Source of the DNA: a virus
IMG/VR virus record: IMGVR_UViG_3300017752_005234
Span: 1-20,679 of that record
DNA length: 20,679 bases
Reading direction: 5' to 3' (one strand)
The translations under genes were made by a program, and so were the position numbers. Below, piece after piece: positions 9,751-20,148 of the stretch (positions are counted from its first letter, which is position 1; every line of letters starts with the position of its first letter). The notes under the pieces are model-generated. The model was not told where the DNA came from. It searched no databases and was given only the letters and a program-made list of their open reading frames with translations.

Positions 9751-10448
9751 TGAGTCAGCTTAAGAATATTAAAATTAATACACCTACATATAGAGAAATT
9801 ATACCTTCTAATAAAACAGAAGTAAAAATTACTCCTTTTAAAGTAGGAGATGAAAAAGTATTACTACTAGCTTCAGAATCAAAAGATGTAGCACAAATGG
9901 TTGACGGTCTTAAATCAGTTATCTCTAATTGTGTTGATGGTATAGGTGTTAATGAATTAGCATCTTTCGATGTTGAATATTTGTTCTTAAAAATTAGATC
10001 TGTGTCTGTTGGAGAGACCGCAGATATAATGATGACATGTCCAGAATGTGAGACAGCAAATGAAGTTAAAATTGATCTAACTAAAGTTGAATTAAGAGGT
10101 CTAGAAGAGTTTAAAACAAATATTAAAATTACTGATGATCTTATGTTTAAAATGAAAACTCCGGATATTGATAGTTTTTCTAAAGCAGAAAACAATCCAG
10201 ATAGTATAATTAATTTTATTGCCGGTAATGTTGAAAAAGTTTTTTATGGAGAAGAAACTATTGATGTAGGTTTAAATGAGATACCAGATGTAGAAGGTAT
10301 TATTAATCAATTAACTTCTGCACAGTTTTCCGATCTACAAAATTATGTTTTAAAAATACCAAAAGTATCATATGATACAGAGTACACATGTAAACATTGT
10401 GGTACTGAAAACAAAAATACATTAGAAGGATTATCTGATTTTTTTTAG
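9750..10448 (+). CDS. 26: Baseplate hub assembly/tail chaperone, gp26-like
   Basis: A 232-residue protein of the T4 base-plate (gp26, Pfam T4_baseplate) type. It has an N-terminal strand-rich region with VKITPFKVGDEKVLLLASES (25-44), a central VEYLFLKIRSVSVGE segment (75-89), and two CxxC pairs, CPEC (97-100) and CKHC (214-217), that could form a zinc knuckle. T4 gp26 acts in hub assembly and is not well characterised. An AAGGA Shine-Dalgarno and a one-base TAATG overlap with the previous gene support the start. The gene ends in GAT-TTTTTT-TAG, where eight T precede the stop. A -1 slip here would extend the protein by 64 residues, as in tail-assembly chaperone G/GT pairs that precede tape-measure genes. 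Confidence 0.78.
   Translation: MSQLKNIKINTPTYREIIPSNKTEVKITPFKVGDEKVLLLASESKDVAQMVDGLKSVISNCVDGIGVNELASFDVEYLFLKIRSVSVGETADIMMTCPECETANEVKIDLTKVELRGLEEFKTNIKITDDLMFKMKTPDIDSFSKAENNPDSIINFIAGNVEKVFYGEETIDVGLNEIPDVEGIINQLTSAQFSDLQNYVLKIPKVSYDTEYTCKHCGTENKNTLEGLSDFF
10439..10446 (+). promoter_or_regulatory. U8 slippery sequence, probable -1 ribosomal frameshift site
   Basis: Eight consecutive T (10439-10446) cover the last two Phe codons of the gp26-like gene and the first base of its TAG stop. In the -1 frame a TGA at 10436-10438 closes everything upstream. The frame then stays open from 10439 to the TGA at 10637-10639, so the overlap of the two frames coincides with the slippery run. A stop codon directly after the run would also promote slippage by pausing the ribosome. 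Confidence 0.68.
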
Positions 10449-10639
10449 TAAGCCTCTCTCACATTGACCTGATTAACTACTATCAGTTAATTTTTAATAT
10501 GAAACAACATCATAATTGGTCAGTAGAAGAAATAGAAAATATGATACCGTGGGAGAGGGAAGTATATGTCTCTCTTTTGAGACAACATATAGAAGAAGAA
10601 AATGAGAAAATGAGAAAACAAAATGGCAGAGTCTCCTGA
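10445..10639 (+). CDS. gp51/GT-like C-terminal extension reached by -1 frameshift
   Basis: A 64-codon frame entered from the gp26-like gene by a -1 slip, with TTA (10445-10447) as its first codon, giving a fusion of about 296 residues. The product contains SLSHIDLINYYQLIFNMKQHHNWSVEEIENMIPWEREVYVSLLRQ followed by an acidic helix (positions about 3-64, broken here only for description). The WSxEEIExMxPWEREVYVxLL pattern is characteristic of the C-terminal parts of tail-assembly chaperones. The only ATG in the frame (10499) has no Shine-Dalgarno and would discard 18 coding-like codons, so independent initiation seems unlikely. The end overlaps the tape-measure start by 17 bases. Alternative: a separate gp51-like gene with a weak non-ATG start. 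Confidence 0.65.
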   Translation, partial: LVSLSHIDLINYYQLIFNMKQHHNWSVEEIENMIPWEREVYVSLLRQHIEEENEKMRKQNGRVS

Positions 10640-12323
10640 ACTTAAAACTCTTAATTCGATTAAAGCTGTATTAGCAGATAAAAACGCTAATGAAAAAGCA
10701 TTAAAAGAAGCATTTGAAAGTAGTCAAAGAGCATTCCCTGCTCAAGAGTTTAAAAACTTGACTACTAAAATGGGTGATGATATTAAAGATACTAGAAAAG
10801 CTTTAAAAGCTAGAATGGCTGATGATGGTGGTGATGGTGTAGCTTCGGGGTTAGCTAAGTTTCTTGGTGTAGATTTTAAGAGTGAGTTCTTTGATAGACT
10901 AAAAATGATTGGAACTGGCTTTGGCGAAATTAAAAAAGGGTTTAAAGATTTAGGCACAGCTTTAGGTTTAAACAAAGTTGCAAAATCAGTGGGCGGTTTT
11001 TGGGATTTCTTAAAAAAGATATTAGCGGTTGGTCTAGCTACAGTTGGTTTTATTTCTTTCTTAGAAGGTTGGAGTGCTGCTGATAAGATATTTGGAGAAA
11101 ACGCAACGTTTGGAGAAAGACTATCTTCCGGATTAGCTTCTGTTATACAATCTTTCACTGGATTAACAGATGGTGAAACTGCTGATTTAGCTAAAGATAT
11201 AAACGTTGTAGTAACAGATATAATTGAATTCTTAGCAACAGAGTTTGATGCTATAAAAACATCTTTAAAAGCTATGTGGCCTAATGTTAAAAATGCTTTT
11301 GAAGGTATTAAAAGAATACTAGAAGGGGATATAGTTGGTGGTTTAGGTCAATTGACTAGCGGTCTTGGTGGTGTGGGTAGTCAACTTTTAAGTTCAGAAA
11401 GTATGTTACTTAATGTTGTTGGTATACTAGCAGCTGTTAAACTAGCTGGCGCTGCGCTGTCATTTGTAAGTGCTATAGGTCCTATCTTTACCGCTATGTC
11501 TACAATTGCTACTGGTTTAGGAACTGTCTTCGCAGCTGTTGGTGGTAAAGCAGCTTTAGCTACTTTGTTGGCTACTTTTGCGCCTACTCTTGGCGCGGTA
11601 TTAGTACCTCTAGGTATTGCTATTGCAGCTATTGTAGCTTTAAAATCTATATTCGATGGTTTTAGTGCCGGCATGGATGAGTTTGAAAAATCAGGAGATA
11701 TTTCTCAAGCTTTGTCAGTTGGATTAGGTGGTTTTGTTAAGTCACTTCTTAATATGCTTACTCTAGGTCTTTTAAGTGATGAAACATTAGATAAAGTTCA
11801 ACAAAGCGTAAGTAAGTTTCTTGATCCTATGTTTGAAGGTATTGGAGATCTATTCAAAAATATTTGGAGTTGGATTAAGAGTTCCTGGGATGACGCTGTA
11901 TTTGCTGTAAAAGATTTCTTAGGTATGGAGTTAACATCAGAAGAAAGATATAAAAAAGCAGAAAAAGATCTAGAAGAAAAAAGAGCTAAAGTAGCTTTCC
12001 AAAGAGAACAAGGTCGTACTGGAAGGTTTATGGCTAGACAAGAAGCAGAACTAGCTGAGCTGCAAGCAGAATACGATGGAATGGGCGCTGCTAAAGCAAT
12101 AGATAATAAATTGCTAGCTAGTGGTACAGGTACGTATAAAGATTATATCAAGTCGATTCAAGATAGTACAGACCTTACTGACAAGCAAAAAGAAATAGAG
12201 ATAGATGAAGCTAAGGCTGCAAGAGAAAAAATGACCTTCTCAAGTTTTCAGAACACTCAAACTATTCAAAATAATGCTATTATTGCTAAGATCAGACCTC
12301 AACAAGAAAAAGTTGTAATGTAA
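10623..12323 (+). CDS. Tail tape measure protein (gp29-equivalent)
   Basis: A 566-residue protein, similar in length to T4 gp29 (590 aa), that should set tail length and occupy the tail-tube lumen. The N-terminal 120 residues are helical and charged. A hydrophobic segment lies at about 131-148, a long Ala/Gly/Leu/Val-rich hydrophobic region at about 261-340, and another at about 365-384. These are typical tape-measure segments that can insert into the host membrane at injection. A coiled-coil, Lys/Glu-rich stretch covers about 436-487. At 1.5 Angstrom per residue it implies a tail of roughly 85 nm (inference). The start overlaps the frameshift product by 17 bases and lacks a strong ribosome site, suggesting coupled re-initiation. 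Its stop is only 2 bases from the convergent gp4 stop. Confidence 0.8.
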   Translation: MAESPELKTLNSIKAVLADKNANEKALKEAFESSQRAFPAQEFKNLTTKMGDDIKDTRKALKARMADDGGDGVASGLAKFLGVDFKSEFFDRLKMIGTGFGEIKKGFKDLGTALGLNKVAKSVGGFWDFLKKILAVGLATVGFISFLEGWSAADKIFGENATFGERLSSGLASVIQSFTGLTDGETADLAKDINVVVTDIIEFLATEFDAIKTSLKAMWPNVKNAFEGIKRILEGDIVGGLGQLTSGLGGVGSQLLSSESMLLNVVGILAAVKLAGAALSFVSAIGPIFTAMSTIATGLGTVFAAVGGKAALATLLATFAPTLGAVLVPLGIAIAAIVALKSIFDGFSAGMDEFEKSGDISQALSVGLGGFVKSLLNMLTLGLLSDETLDKVQQSVSKFLDPMFEGIGDLFKNIWSWIKSSWDDAVFAVKDFLGMELTSEERYKKAEKDLEEKRAKVAFQREQGRTGRFMARQEAELAELQAEYDGMGAAKAIDNKLLASGTGTYKDYIKSIQDSTDLTDKQKEIEIDEAKAAREKMTFSSFQNTQTIQNNAIIAKIRPQQEKVVM

Positions 12324-15962: not shown

Positions 15963-17252
15963 ATGATTTATTCAGGCGAAATGGTATGGTTCGTAGGAGC
16001 CGTTGAAGATAGAAAAGATCCTTTACAAATGGGAAGGGTTAAAGTCCGTTGTTTTGGTATACACCCAGAAGATAAAAACGTATTAAAAACAGAAGATTTA
16101 CCATGGTCATCTTTAATGTTACCTGCAAACTCAGCTGGTACAGGTTCTATTGGTCAATCTGCAACAGGTATTGTACAAGGAGCTTGGGTAGTTGGTTTCT
16201 TTACTGATGGTCAAAACATGCAACAACCACTTATTATGGGTGTGCTTCCTTCTCAACCTTATGAAAAAGAAGATAAAGCAAAAGGCTTTTTAGATCCCGA
16301 TTCAGTTAATCCAGTAAACAACGAATTTGAAAACGATCAACCATTGACAGCGACAGGTAATTATTCACGGCACCCTTCCTATTTTGCAAGAGAAGACTTA
16401 AGACAACTTGATGTTGACACCGCTGTACCACCTAGAGTATCAACTGTTGCTGTTGATAGTACTGACGAATATTATGAAAGACAAGTTTGGTCTACACCAG
16501 AAACTCATCAAGGTGTTACTCCAGTATATCCTTACAACAAAGTATTAGCCAGCGAATCAGGTCATACCACTGAAATAGATGACACACCAGACAATCCAAG
16601 ATTAGCACAGTTTCATACTTCTGGTACTAGCTATGAAATAAACGGTGATGGTGAAAAACACGAAACTATTGTAGGAGATAATTATCAAATAATTATTAAA
16701 GATAATAACATCTTAGTAAAAGGTAATATGAATCTTACAGTTGAGAATGATATGAAAGTTTTAGTTAAAGGCAATTATCACTTAGAAGTAGAAAAAGATT
16801 ATACAGTTAATGTAAAAGGTTCAAAACAAACTAAGATAACAGGATCTGAATTCAAAGAAATAGACGAAGGTGATTATGTAAGTAATATAGCATCCGGTGA
16901 TTACACTCAACGTATTGCTGGTATTGAAACACGAATTGTAGATTCGGATATAAGAACTACTATTGGTGGAAAAGAAGAGCGCTTGATAAAAAATGATTAT
17001 GATAGAATTGTTATGGGTGATACGACTACAGTAACGAAGAAAAACTATAATAAAACTGTTACTGGTACATTAGATCTATTATCGATGGGGGATCTAACAA
17101 TCGAAACAGCAGCTAATATGATAACTGATGTAGATGGTAACAAAACTGTTACAGTACAAGACGGTAATGTTACTGAAAATATTAATGGTAATCAAACTAC
17201 ACAAATAACAGGTAACTTAGATGTTGACGCAACAAGGATTGATTTAAACTAA
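15963..17252 (+). CDS. 5: Cell-puncturing spike gp5, lysozyme-less
   Basis: A 429-residue spike (T4 gp5 is 575 aa). Residues 1-95 form the OB-fold domain that docks on gp27 (WFVGAVEDRKDPLQMGRVKVRCFGIHP; WVVGFFTDGQNMQQPLIMGVLP). Residues 96-190 are a Pro/Asp-rich linker. Residues 195-429 are the triple-stranded beta-helix with about 8-residue alternating repeats (VKGNMNLTVENDMKVLVKGNY, broken here only as landmarks at 252-271), ending VDATRIDLN. The T4 lysozyme domain between OB-fold and helix is absent, so peptidoglycan must be opened by another protein or by force. GGAAGG Shine-Dalgarno. The PAAR gene follows with a one-base TAATG overlap, as expected for spike and tip. Confidence 0.88.
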   Translation: MIYSGEMVWFVGAVEDRKDPLQMGRVKVRCFGIHPEDKNVLKTEDLPWSSLMLPANSAGTGSIGQSATGIVQGAWVVGFFTDGQNMQQPLIMGVLPSQPYEKEDKAKGFLDPDSVNPVNNEFENDQPLTATGNYSRHPSYFAREDLRQLDVDTAVPPRVSTVAVDSTDEYYERQVWSTPETHQGVTPVYPYNKVLASESGHTTEIDDTPDNPRLAQFHTSGTSYEINGDGEKHETIVGDNYQIIIKDNNILVKGNMNLTVENDMKVLVKGNYHLEVEKDYTVNVKGSKQTKITGSEFKEIDEGDYVSNIASGDYTQRIAGIETRIVDSDIRTTIGGKEERLIKNDYDRIVMGDTTTVTKKNYNKTVTGTLDLLSMGDLTIETAANMITDVDGNKTVTVQDGNVTENINGNQTTQITGNLDVDATRIDLN

Positions 17253-19695: not shown

Positions 19696-20148
19696 ATGAT
19701 AGCAACAATTTTATCAACAGCATTAGGTTTCGGTACATCTTTTGTGCCTAAACTACTTGACTTTGCCCAAGATGGTAAAGATAAAAAACACGAACTGGCG
19801 GTTATGAGTCTCCAGATTGAAAGAGAAGAGAAGTTACAGTCTCAAAAAGCTGAAGCTATGTTATTACAAGCTGAAATTCAAAGAGAAACAGCATTGTTAG
19901 ATCATGATGCTAAATCAGCTGAGCATGCATCTACTTGGGTTAATAATATGAGATCTACAGTTAGACCGATTATTACTTATCTTTTCTTTGCATTATTTTT
20001 CTTTGTAGAAGGAGTAGCAGTTTATGTGGTCTTGCGTGATGGTGGTGATCTCACAACAATCGCAGACACACTCTGGTCAGAAGAGACGCAGTCAATCTTT
20101 GCTGCAATCATTGCTTTCTGGTTTGGGTCTCGAGCGGTTAAAAAGTAA
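19696..20148 (+). CDS. Three-TM holin-like protein
   Basis: A 150-residue membrane protein. An N-terminal hydrophobic/amphipathic segment (2-21) is followed by a charged coiled-coil rich in Glu, Gln and Lys (27-75), the STWVNNMRSTVRP junction (79-91), TM2 (91-112) and TM3 (131-146) ending FWFGSRAVKK. The junction, two closing TM helices and FWFGSR ending match the 3-TM holin family first described in gene transfer agents (GTA_holin_3TM). Role inferred: inner-membrane permeabilisation to time lysis. GGAG Shine-Dalgarno. The stop overlaps the next gene by one base. No endolysin is visible in the window, so the lysin lies elsewhere or beyond the right edge. Confidence 0.75.
   Translation: MIATILSTALGFGTSFVPKLLDFAQDGKDKKHELAVMSLQIEREEKLQSQKAEAMLLQAEIQRETALLDHDAKSAEHASTWVNNMRSTVRPIITYLFFALFFFVEGVAVYVVLRDGGDLTTIADTLWSEETQSIFAAIIAFWFGSRAVKK

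Follow-up and report, generated by a model that had tools for sequence, protein, structure and literature searches.

Evidence for programmed -1 frameshifting between gp26 and a gp51-like extension in the putative tail chaperone gene of T4-like marine myoviruses

Results

A T4-like marine myovirus appears to make the long form of its tail assembly chaperone by programmed -1 ribosomal frameshifting, in which ribosomes would pass from the end of a gp26-like gene into a gp51-like extension; judged from the sequences, we put the probability of this reading at roughly nine in ten. The anatomy of the junction, its conservation, the selection on the extension, the homology to both gp26 and gp51 of T4 and the predicted fold are established computationally. 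The frameshift had been proposed in an initial annotation of the same DNA, and it is now well supported by the conservation of the heptamer, the selection on the -1 frame and the accompanying signals.

The stretch analyzed, in the following called the window, comprises 20,679 nt of an IMG/VR virus record (Table 1). The 0-frame 3' end of its gp26-like gene reads GAT TTT TTT TAG, with the stop at 10446-10448 and a run of eight T at 10439-10446. In the -1 frame, a TGA at 10436-10438 is followed by an open stretch over 10439-10636, i.e., two phenylalanine codons (FF) and a further 64 codons, and it is in this frame that the extension peptide WSVEEIENMIPWEREVYVSLL is found. The gp26/gp51-like pair of reading frames sits immediately upstream of a tape-measure-like gene, which is the position of the chaperone class, and the extension overlaps this gene, whose ATG is at 10623, by 17 nt including the stop. 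The matches of the 566-aa product to tape-measure PHROGs are weak but mutually consistent, all of them being to tail length tape measure proteins, and they agree with the placement of the extension directly upstream of, and overlapping, the tape measure that had originally been noted. When the sequence was rechecked, the T run, the -1-frame stop, the open stretch and the overlap were all found at the coordinates first given for them. In the -1 frame, a start codon first occurs at 10499 (ATG, +53), with no SD-like sequence upstream of it, in keeping with the earlier statement that the extension lacks a plausible start of its own; initiation there would also leave out a conserved segment of the extension.

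Table 1. Features of the gp26-gp51 junction in the window
Feature	Position	Strand	Remarks
gp26-like gene, short form (TAC-N), 232 aa	9750..10448	+	PF12322, phrog_150, predicted N-terminal fold
SD-like element AGAAGGA	10424..10430	+	AAGG ends 9 nt upstream of heptamer
Slippery heptamer T TTT TTT (relatives mostly T TTT TTC), TAG directly after	10439..10445	+	
gp51-like extension (TAC-C), -1 frame, stop TGA 10637-10639	10439..10639	+	phrog_634; purifying selection from slip site on
5' arm CCTCTCTCAC of downstream stem	10453..10462	+	7 nt after heptamer
3' arm GTGGGAGAGG of downstream stem	10549..10558	+	within PWER codons
Tape-measure-like gene, 566 aa, overlapping end of extension	10623..12323	+	phrog_991 1.4e-06, phrog_167 5e-06, phrog_1272 1.7e-05

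Three of the 23 window genes that were checked end near an in-frame heptamer of the form X XXY YYZ, and the gp26-like gene is the only one of the 23 with a long open -1 frame that is not explained by a neighbor with its own start. The third heptamer-ending gene has a -1 frame that closes after two codons. The remaining one, a gp5-like gene (window 17243-17252), ends near an in-frame T TTA AAC, and its -1 frame runs into a PAAR gene; since the PAAR gene has its own ATG at 17252, this heptamer may be due to chance.

The gp26-like product matched PF12322 (T4_baseplate, 4.4e-57) and phrog_150 (4.9e-56). The extension matched phrog_634, the 'baseplate hub assembly catalyst' (gp51), at 1.1e-26, as well as the C-terminal end of phrog_150. 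With an HMM of the conceptual fusion, T4 gp51 was matched across the junction and T4 gp26 up to the junction only. Searches of PDB sequences with gp26 and with T4 gp51 gave nothing meaningful, nor did a search of NCBIfam. An AlphaFold2 model of the gp26-like protein (pLDDT 89) gave no match at E <= 0.001 when compared with the PDB by Foldseek alone, the HK97 tail assembly chaperone 2ob9 being placed, without significance, at rank 13. Upon re-alignment of the Foldseek PDB candidates, 2ob9_B came out on top with a Z of 8.1 over 84 of 104 residues, a match that covers residues 1-97 of the gp26-like protein only, and a Z of 8 is by itself moderate evidence. It was followed by two proteins of Bacillus species, 3fgx (Z 7.9) and 3klu (Z 7.0), which we take to be prophage chaperone-like proteins, and then by an unrelated row at 4.4. 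Homology, genomic place and predicted fold together suggest that the gp26 short form and the fusion are tape-measure chaperones, and they lend good support to the earlier assignment of gp26/gp51 as a tail assembly chaperone of the G/GT kind.

Two features of these proteins may be mentioned in their own right. The gp26-like protein contains two CxxC pairs, CPEC and CKHC (window 10038-10049 and 10386-10397), which could form a zinc ribbon; most of these cysteines are missing from the cyanophages S-PM2 and P-SSM2. The extension (window 10448-10636) resembles Pfam DUF6760 (PF20546) at an E of 0.04, which is below the cut-off, and this is a possible lead to relatives outside the T4-like phages.

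Two scans of IMG/VR, together with the window, yielded 89 junctions. The comparison with relatives that had been suggested for the T run gave a uniform picture, as T TTT TTN is present in every one of the 89 and the gp51-like extension always follows in the -1 frame, with the register unchanged (74 heptamers end in TTC, 13 in TTT and two in TTA). Statistics were computed on 80 junctions that are pairwise less than 90% identical and include six named isolates. In each of these 80, T is the last letter of the codon preceding the Phe pair, and TTT is used for the first Phe. The second Phe is TTC in 66 of 78 cases, as compared to 25% of the Phe codons in these genes. Altogether, XXT TTT TTC is present at 66 of the 80 junctions versus 9 of the 269 Phe-Phe pairs elsewhere in the same loci; the corresponding P of about 7e-47 is too small because related sequences are treated as independent, but the comparison with Phe-Phe pairs within the same loci gives the same picture. 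The two junctions in which TTA (Leu) takes the place of Phe still keep the slippery motif. Among named phages, T TTT TTC is found in S-PM2, P-SSM2, PhiW-14, phiAS5, D481 and Marzo, and T TTT TTT in phiM7, while the Ackermannviridae Maynard and Kuja have kept the -1 extension with a heptamer that is not canonical. In Salmonella phage Maynard (3235-3405), the extension after gp26 carries the gp51-type motif ESMPWHLDLL, is unannotated and has no canonical heptamer.

Homopolymer runs are error-prone, and the gp51 protein of T4 has the same make-up in one uninterrupted chain, so one might suspect that an assembly or sequencing indel has split a single continuous gene. However, 89 contigs as well as named isolates share the arrangement, for the most part as six T and a C, and with differing stop codons and stop positions; on the sequences of the relatives, such an artifact is already refuted, and we grant it practically no weight. 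Slippage of RNA polymerase on the T run, which would generate a shifted message, is very improbable as well. The window does have a run of eight T, and U runs can cause transcriptional slippage, as has been noted for UUUUUUU (PMC4066793). Yet most relatives have six T followed by a C, which is short for transcriptional slippage, and both the SD-like element and the downstream stem described below, which are conserved, are of a kind that stimulates ribosomal frameshifting.

In order to follow the selection on the extension, pN/pS was determined for nine members of the window's clade over the 17 codons from the slip site to where the window has its first ATG (+53). The -1 frame gave a pN/pS of 0.206 before this first possible start and of 0.213 after it, whereas the two other frames had 1.16 and 1.53 for the 17-codon segment. 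The low value in the -1 frame indicates that the segment is translated in this frame, and in the window no start codon precedes it.

These data bear on the possibility that gp51 is a separate product, for which ribosomes re-initiate in a coupled fashion or use a start codon of its own, and that the T run is no more than the coding sequence of a conserved Phe-Phe with which gp26 ends. Many cyanophages are publicly annotated with a distinct gp51 whose ATG lies just past the gp26 stop, and a start codon at the stop or at most 12 nt from it, which leaves room for independent initiation, is present at 44 of the 80 junctions. Furthermore, Phe-Phe is also found near the end of T4 gp26, for which no frameshift is required, so that the FF is in part a protein requirement. 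However, T4 gp26 has the 3' end GAG TTC TTT GAG TTA CTA, i.e., it writes the FF without a heptamer, while in the phages studied here the heptamer is fixed as a nucleotide motif and persists, with TTA, where the Phe is lost. Moreover, no start codon lies within 12 nt of the stop in the other 36 of the 80 junctions, the window's clade among them, and in that clade the selection on the -1 frame sets in before the first start. An observation that would tell against the frameshift had been named beforehand, namely relatives in which the extension has its own start and Shine-Dalgarno sequence and no slippery run; the 44 junctions with a start all retain the heptamer and have no such SD, the mean anti-SD energy in the ribosome-binding window of these starts being -0.46 kcal/mol, i.e., close to zero, as compared to -8.2 at the site preceding the heptamer. 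An extension that is coded from the slip site on and has no start of its own is therefore found in the window's clade, though not in all relatives. Taken together, we regard a separately initiated gp51 as unlikely in the extreme, if slightly less so than polymerase slippage, and favor the programmed frameshift.

The slippery run had been recognized as the signal from the outset, while an SD-like element upstream of it and a stem downstream of it were missed. In the window, the upstream element AGAAGGA has an anti-SD pairing energy of -5.5 kcal/mol, which is weaker than the consensus. At 41 of the 80 junctions, GGAGG precedes the heptamer with a spacing of exactly 10 nt, and GAGG is present at 58. 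Across the 80 junctions, anti-SD pairing at this position is stronger by 2-4 kcal/mol than after synonymous recoding (z about -13), and no comparable peak was found elsewhere in the last 20 codons of the gp26-like genes. The Glu codon within the element is GAG in 58 of 73 cases versus 58 of 273 (21%) at other Glu-Gly pairs (P 6e-20). Where there are gp51 starts nearby, they are about 19-25 nt away from the element, which is too far for it to serve them, and the element is also present where no such start exists. In the more distant phages phiAS5, D481 and Marzo, it is weak or absent.

Downstream of the heptamer, folding of the first 60 nt is more stable than that of dinucleotide shuffles (mean z -1.5; control windows, -0.35 to +0.36), and nucleotides 8-15 have a mean pairing probability of 0.80-0.95 as compared to 0.54 in controls. 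Uninterrupted stems of -10 kcal/mol or better that start 2-10 nt (mostly 4-8) past the heptamer are found at 41 of the 80 loci, but in only one of 240 control windows. The window's own stem, CCTCTCTCAC/GTGGGAGAGG, comprises 10 bp with the partner about 86 nt away; a short hairpin about 25 nt downstream had been considered in its place and was dropped, as the long-range stem is stronger. In the nine relatives of the window's clade, 98.9% of the cells are paired, as compared to 49-77% when the stem is slid along the alignment, and two pairs have changes on both sides; against control (a) the result is modest (17/500), since this sample contains just nine related sequences. A second group of 30 sequences has a local partner arm with a 9-nt loop. 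Here, 88% of the cells are paired versus 30-44% when slid, and 10 cells are changed on both sides versus 3.3 +/- 1.3 upon shuffling. These covariation tests correct for relatedness in part, and the sample from the window's clade is small.

Discussion

Based on these results, we picture the expression of the junction as follows. Most ribosomes would end at the TAG and release gp26 (TAC-N, 232 aa). Some would pause at the heptamer, where the SD-like element would pair with 16S rRNA and the stem would also hold the ribosome, and the two Phe tRNAs could then re-pair one base back, for which both T TTT TTC and T TTT TTT permit full re-pairing. In E. coli, the corresponding U_UUU_UUC and U_UUU_UUU are both active as -1 motifs (PMC4066793). 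The shifted ribosomes would read through the gp51-like extension and produce a fusion (TAC-NC) of about 296 aa. In analogy to lambda G/GT, both forms would coat the tape measure protein encoded by the next gene and recruit the tail tube. We infer that the slip takes place, as well as its rate and the chaperone function.

The closest comparison is T4 itself, in which gp26 matches the short form and gp51 consists of a gp26-like domain plus the same extension, making it the covalent equivalent of the frameshift product. However, the two forms of T4 are separate genes on opposite strands without a slippery heptamer, whereas the window has one gene and a -1 extension. In Aeromonas phage phiAS5, also a member of the Straboviridae, GAT TTT TTC is followed by a -1 extension (2711-2890), i.e., by the frameshift arrangement. 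Since T4, of the same family, has two genes, the switch probably took place within the Straboviridae.

Like the gp26/gp51-like pair, lambda G/GT, P2 E/E' and the HK97 chaperone genes consist of two ORFs just upstream of the tape measure with a -1 shift near the end of the first. The likeness seen to lambda G and T is one of gene arrangement, while the HK97 chaperone (2ob9) is resembled by the predicted N-terminal fold of gp26. As compared to the lambda, P2 and HK97 chaperones, the gp26-like protein of the window has an extra C-terminal part with the two CxxC pairs. With regard to the signal, the nearest parallel is E. coli dnaX, which has the same three parts, an upstream SD-like element, a homopolymeric heptamer and a downstream stem (PMC5600365, PMC3711429), and in our set, too, the SD-like element lies about 10 nt upstream (9 nt in the window) and the stem a few nucleotides downstream of the heptamer. 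It differs in that dnaX uses A AAA AAG rather than T TTT TTC/T, in that the shifted product is here the longer one, and in that some phages have a local partner arm of the stem, whereas in other phages it is about 60-90 nt distant. The TAC frameshift of the Vandenendeviridae/Andersonviridae concerns other phage families and a motif reported as GTTTTT (PMC12846349).

According to a 2016 review, long-tailed phages 'except T4' share a conserved G-T frameshift (PMC5009743). The initial annotation suggested that the arrangement was undescribed for gp26/gp51, which turned out to be mistaken. Vladimirov, Gautam & Davidson (2022, Virology 566:9) reportedly identified the tail assembly chaperone genes of T4-like phages, and are said to have found frameshifting to be conserved in several T4-like groups, with T4 using genes 26 and 51. 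In the citing passages of later papers, this study is credited with the finding that the TAC-N genes of T4-like phages have poly-T -1 signals (PMC12846349), and also with the finding that some T4-like phages instead carry short and long (fusion) TAC genes (PMC10274946). Going by these passages, the central idea of a gp26/gp51 frameshift is already published, and it concerns the same gene family, the same place, the same proposed short and long products and a poly-T -1 frameshift, though the window's uncultivated marine clade may not have been included. The same passages make no mention of an SD-like element together with a downstream stem. No mention of a composite signal for T4-like chaperones was found in the literature searched, which is weak evidence, and the composite stimulatory signal may thus be new. 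On balance, we lean towards the view that a three-part, dnaX-like signal, undescribed for phage tail chaperones, drives the gp26/gp51 frameshift in a broad marine T4-like group comprising the window's clade and cyanophage-like relatives, in which the position of the stem after the heptamer would be fixed and the partner arm be local or about 60-90 nt away, depending on the lineage.

Our data speak in favor of a role of gp26 and gp51, the 'hub assembly' proteins of T4, as tail-tape chaperones. From the conservation of the SD-like element and the stem, the ratio of the two forms is predicted to be tuned. The window's clade, in which a start of the long form on its own is not plausible, would allow a clean test of the frameshift. 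Cyanophage records in which gp51 is given as a separate gene, or in which the extension is unannotated, probably need correction. Elsewhere in the window, a 150-aa protein (19696-20148) has two apparent C-terminal membrane segments and looks holin-like by eye.
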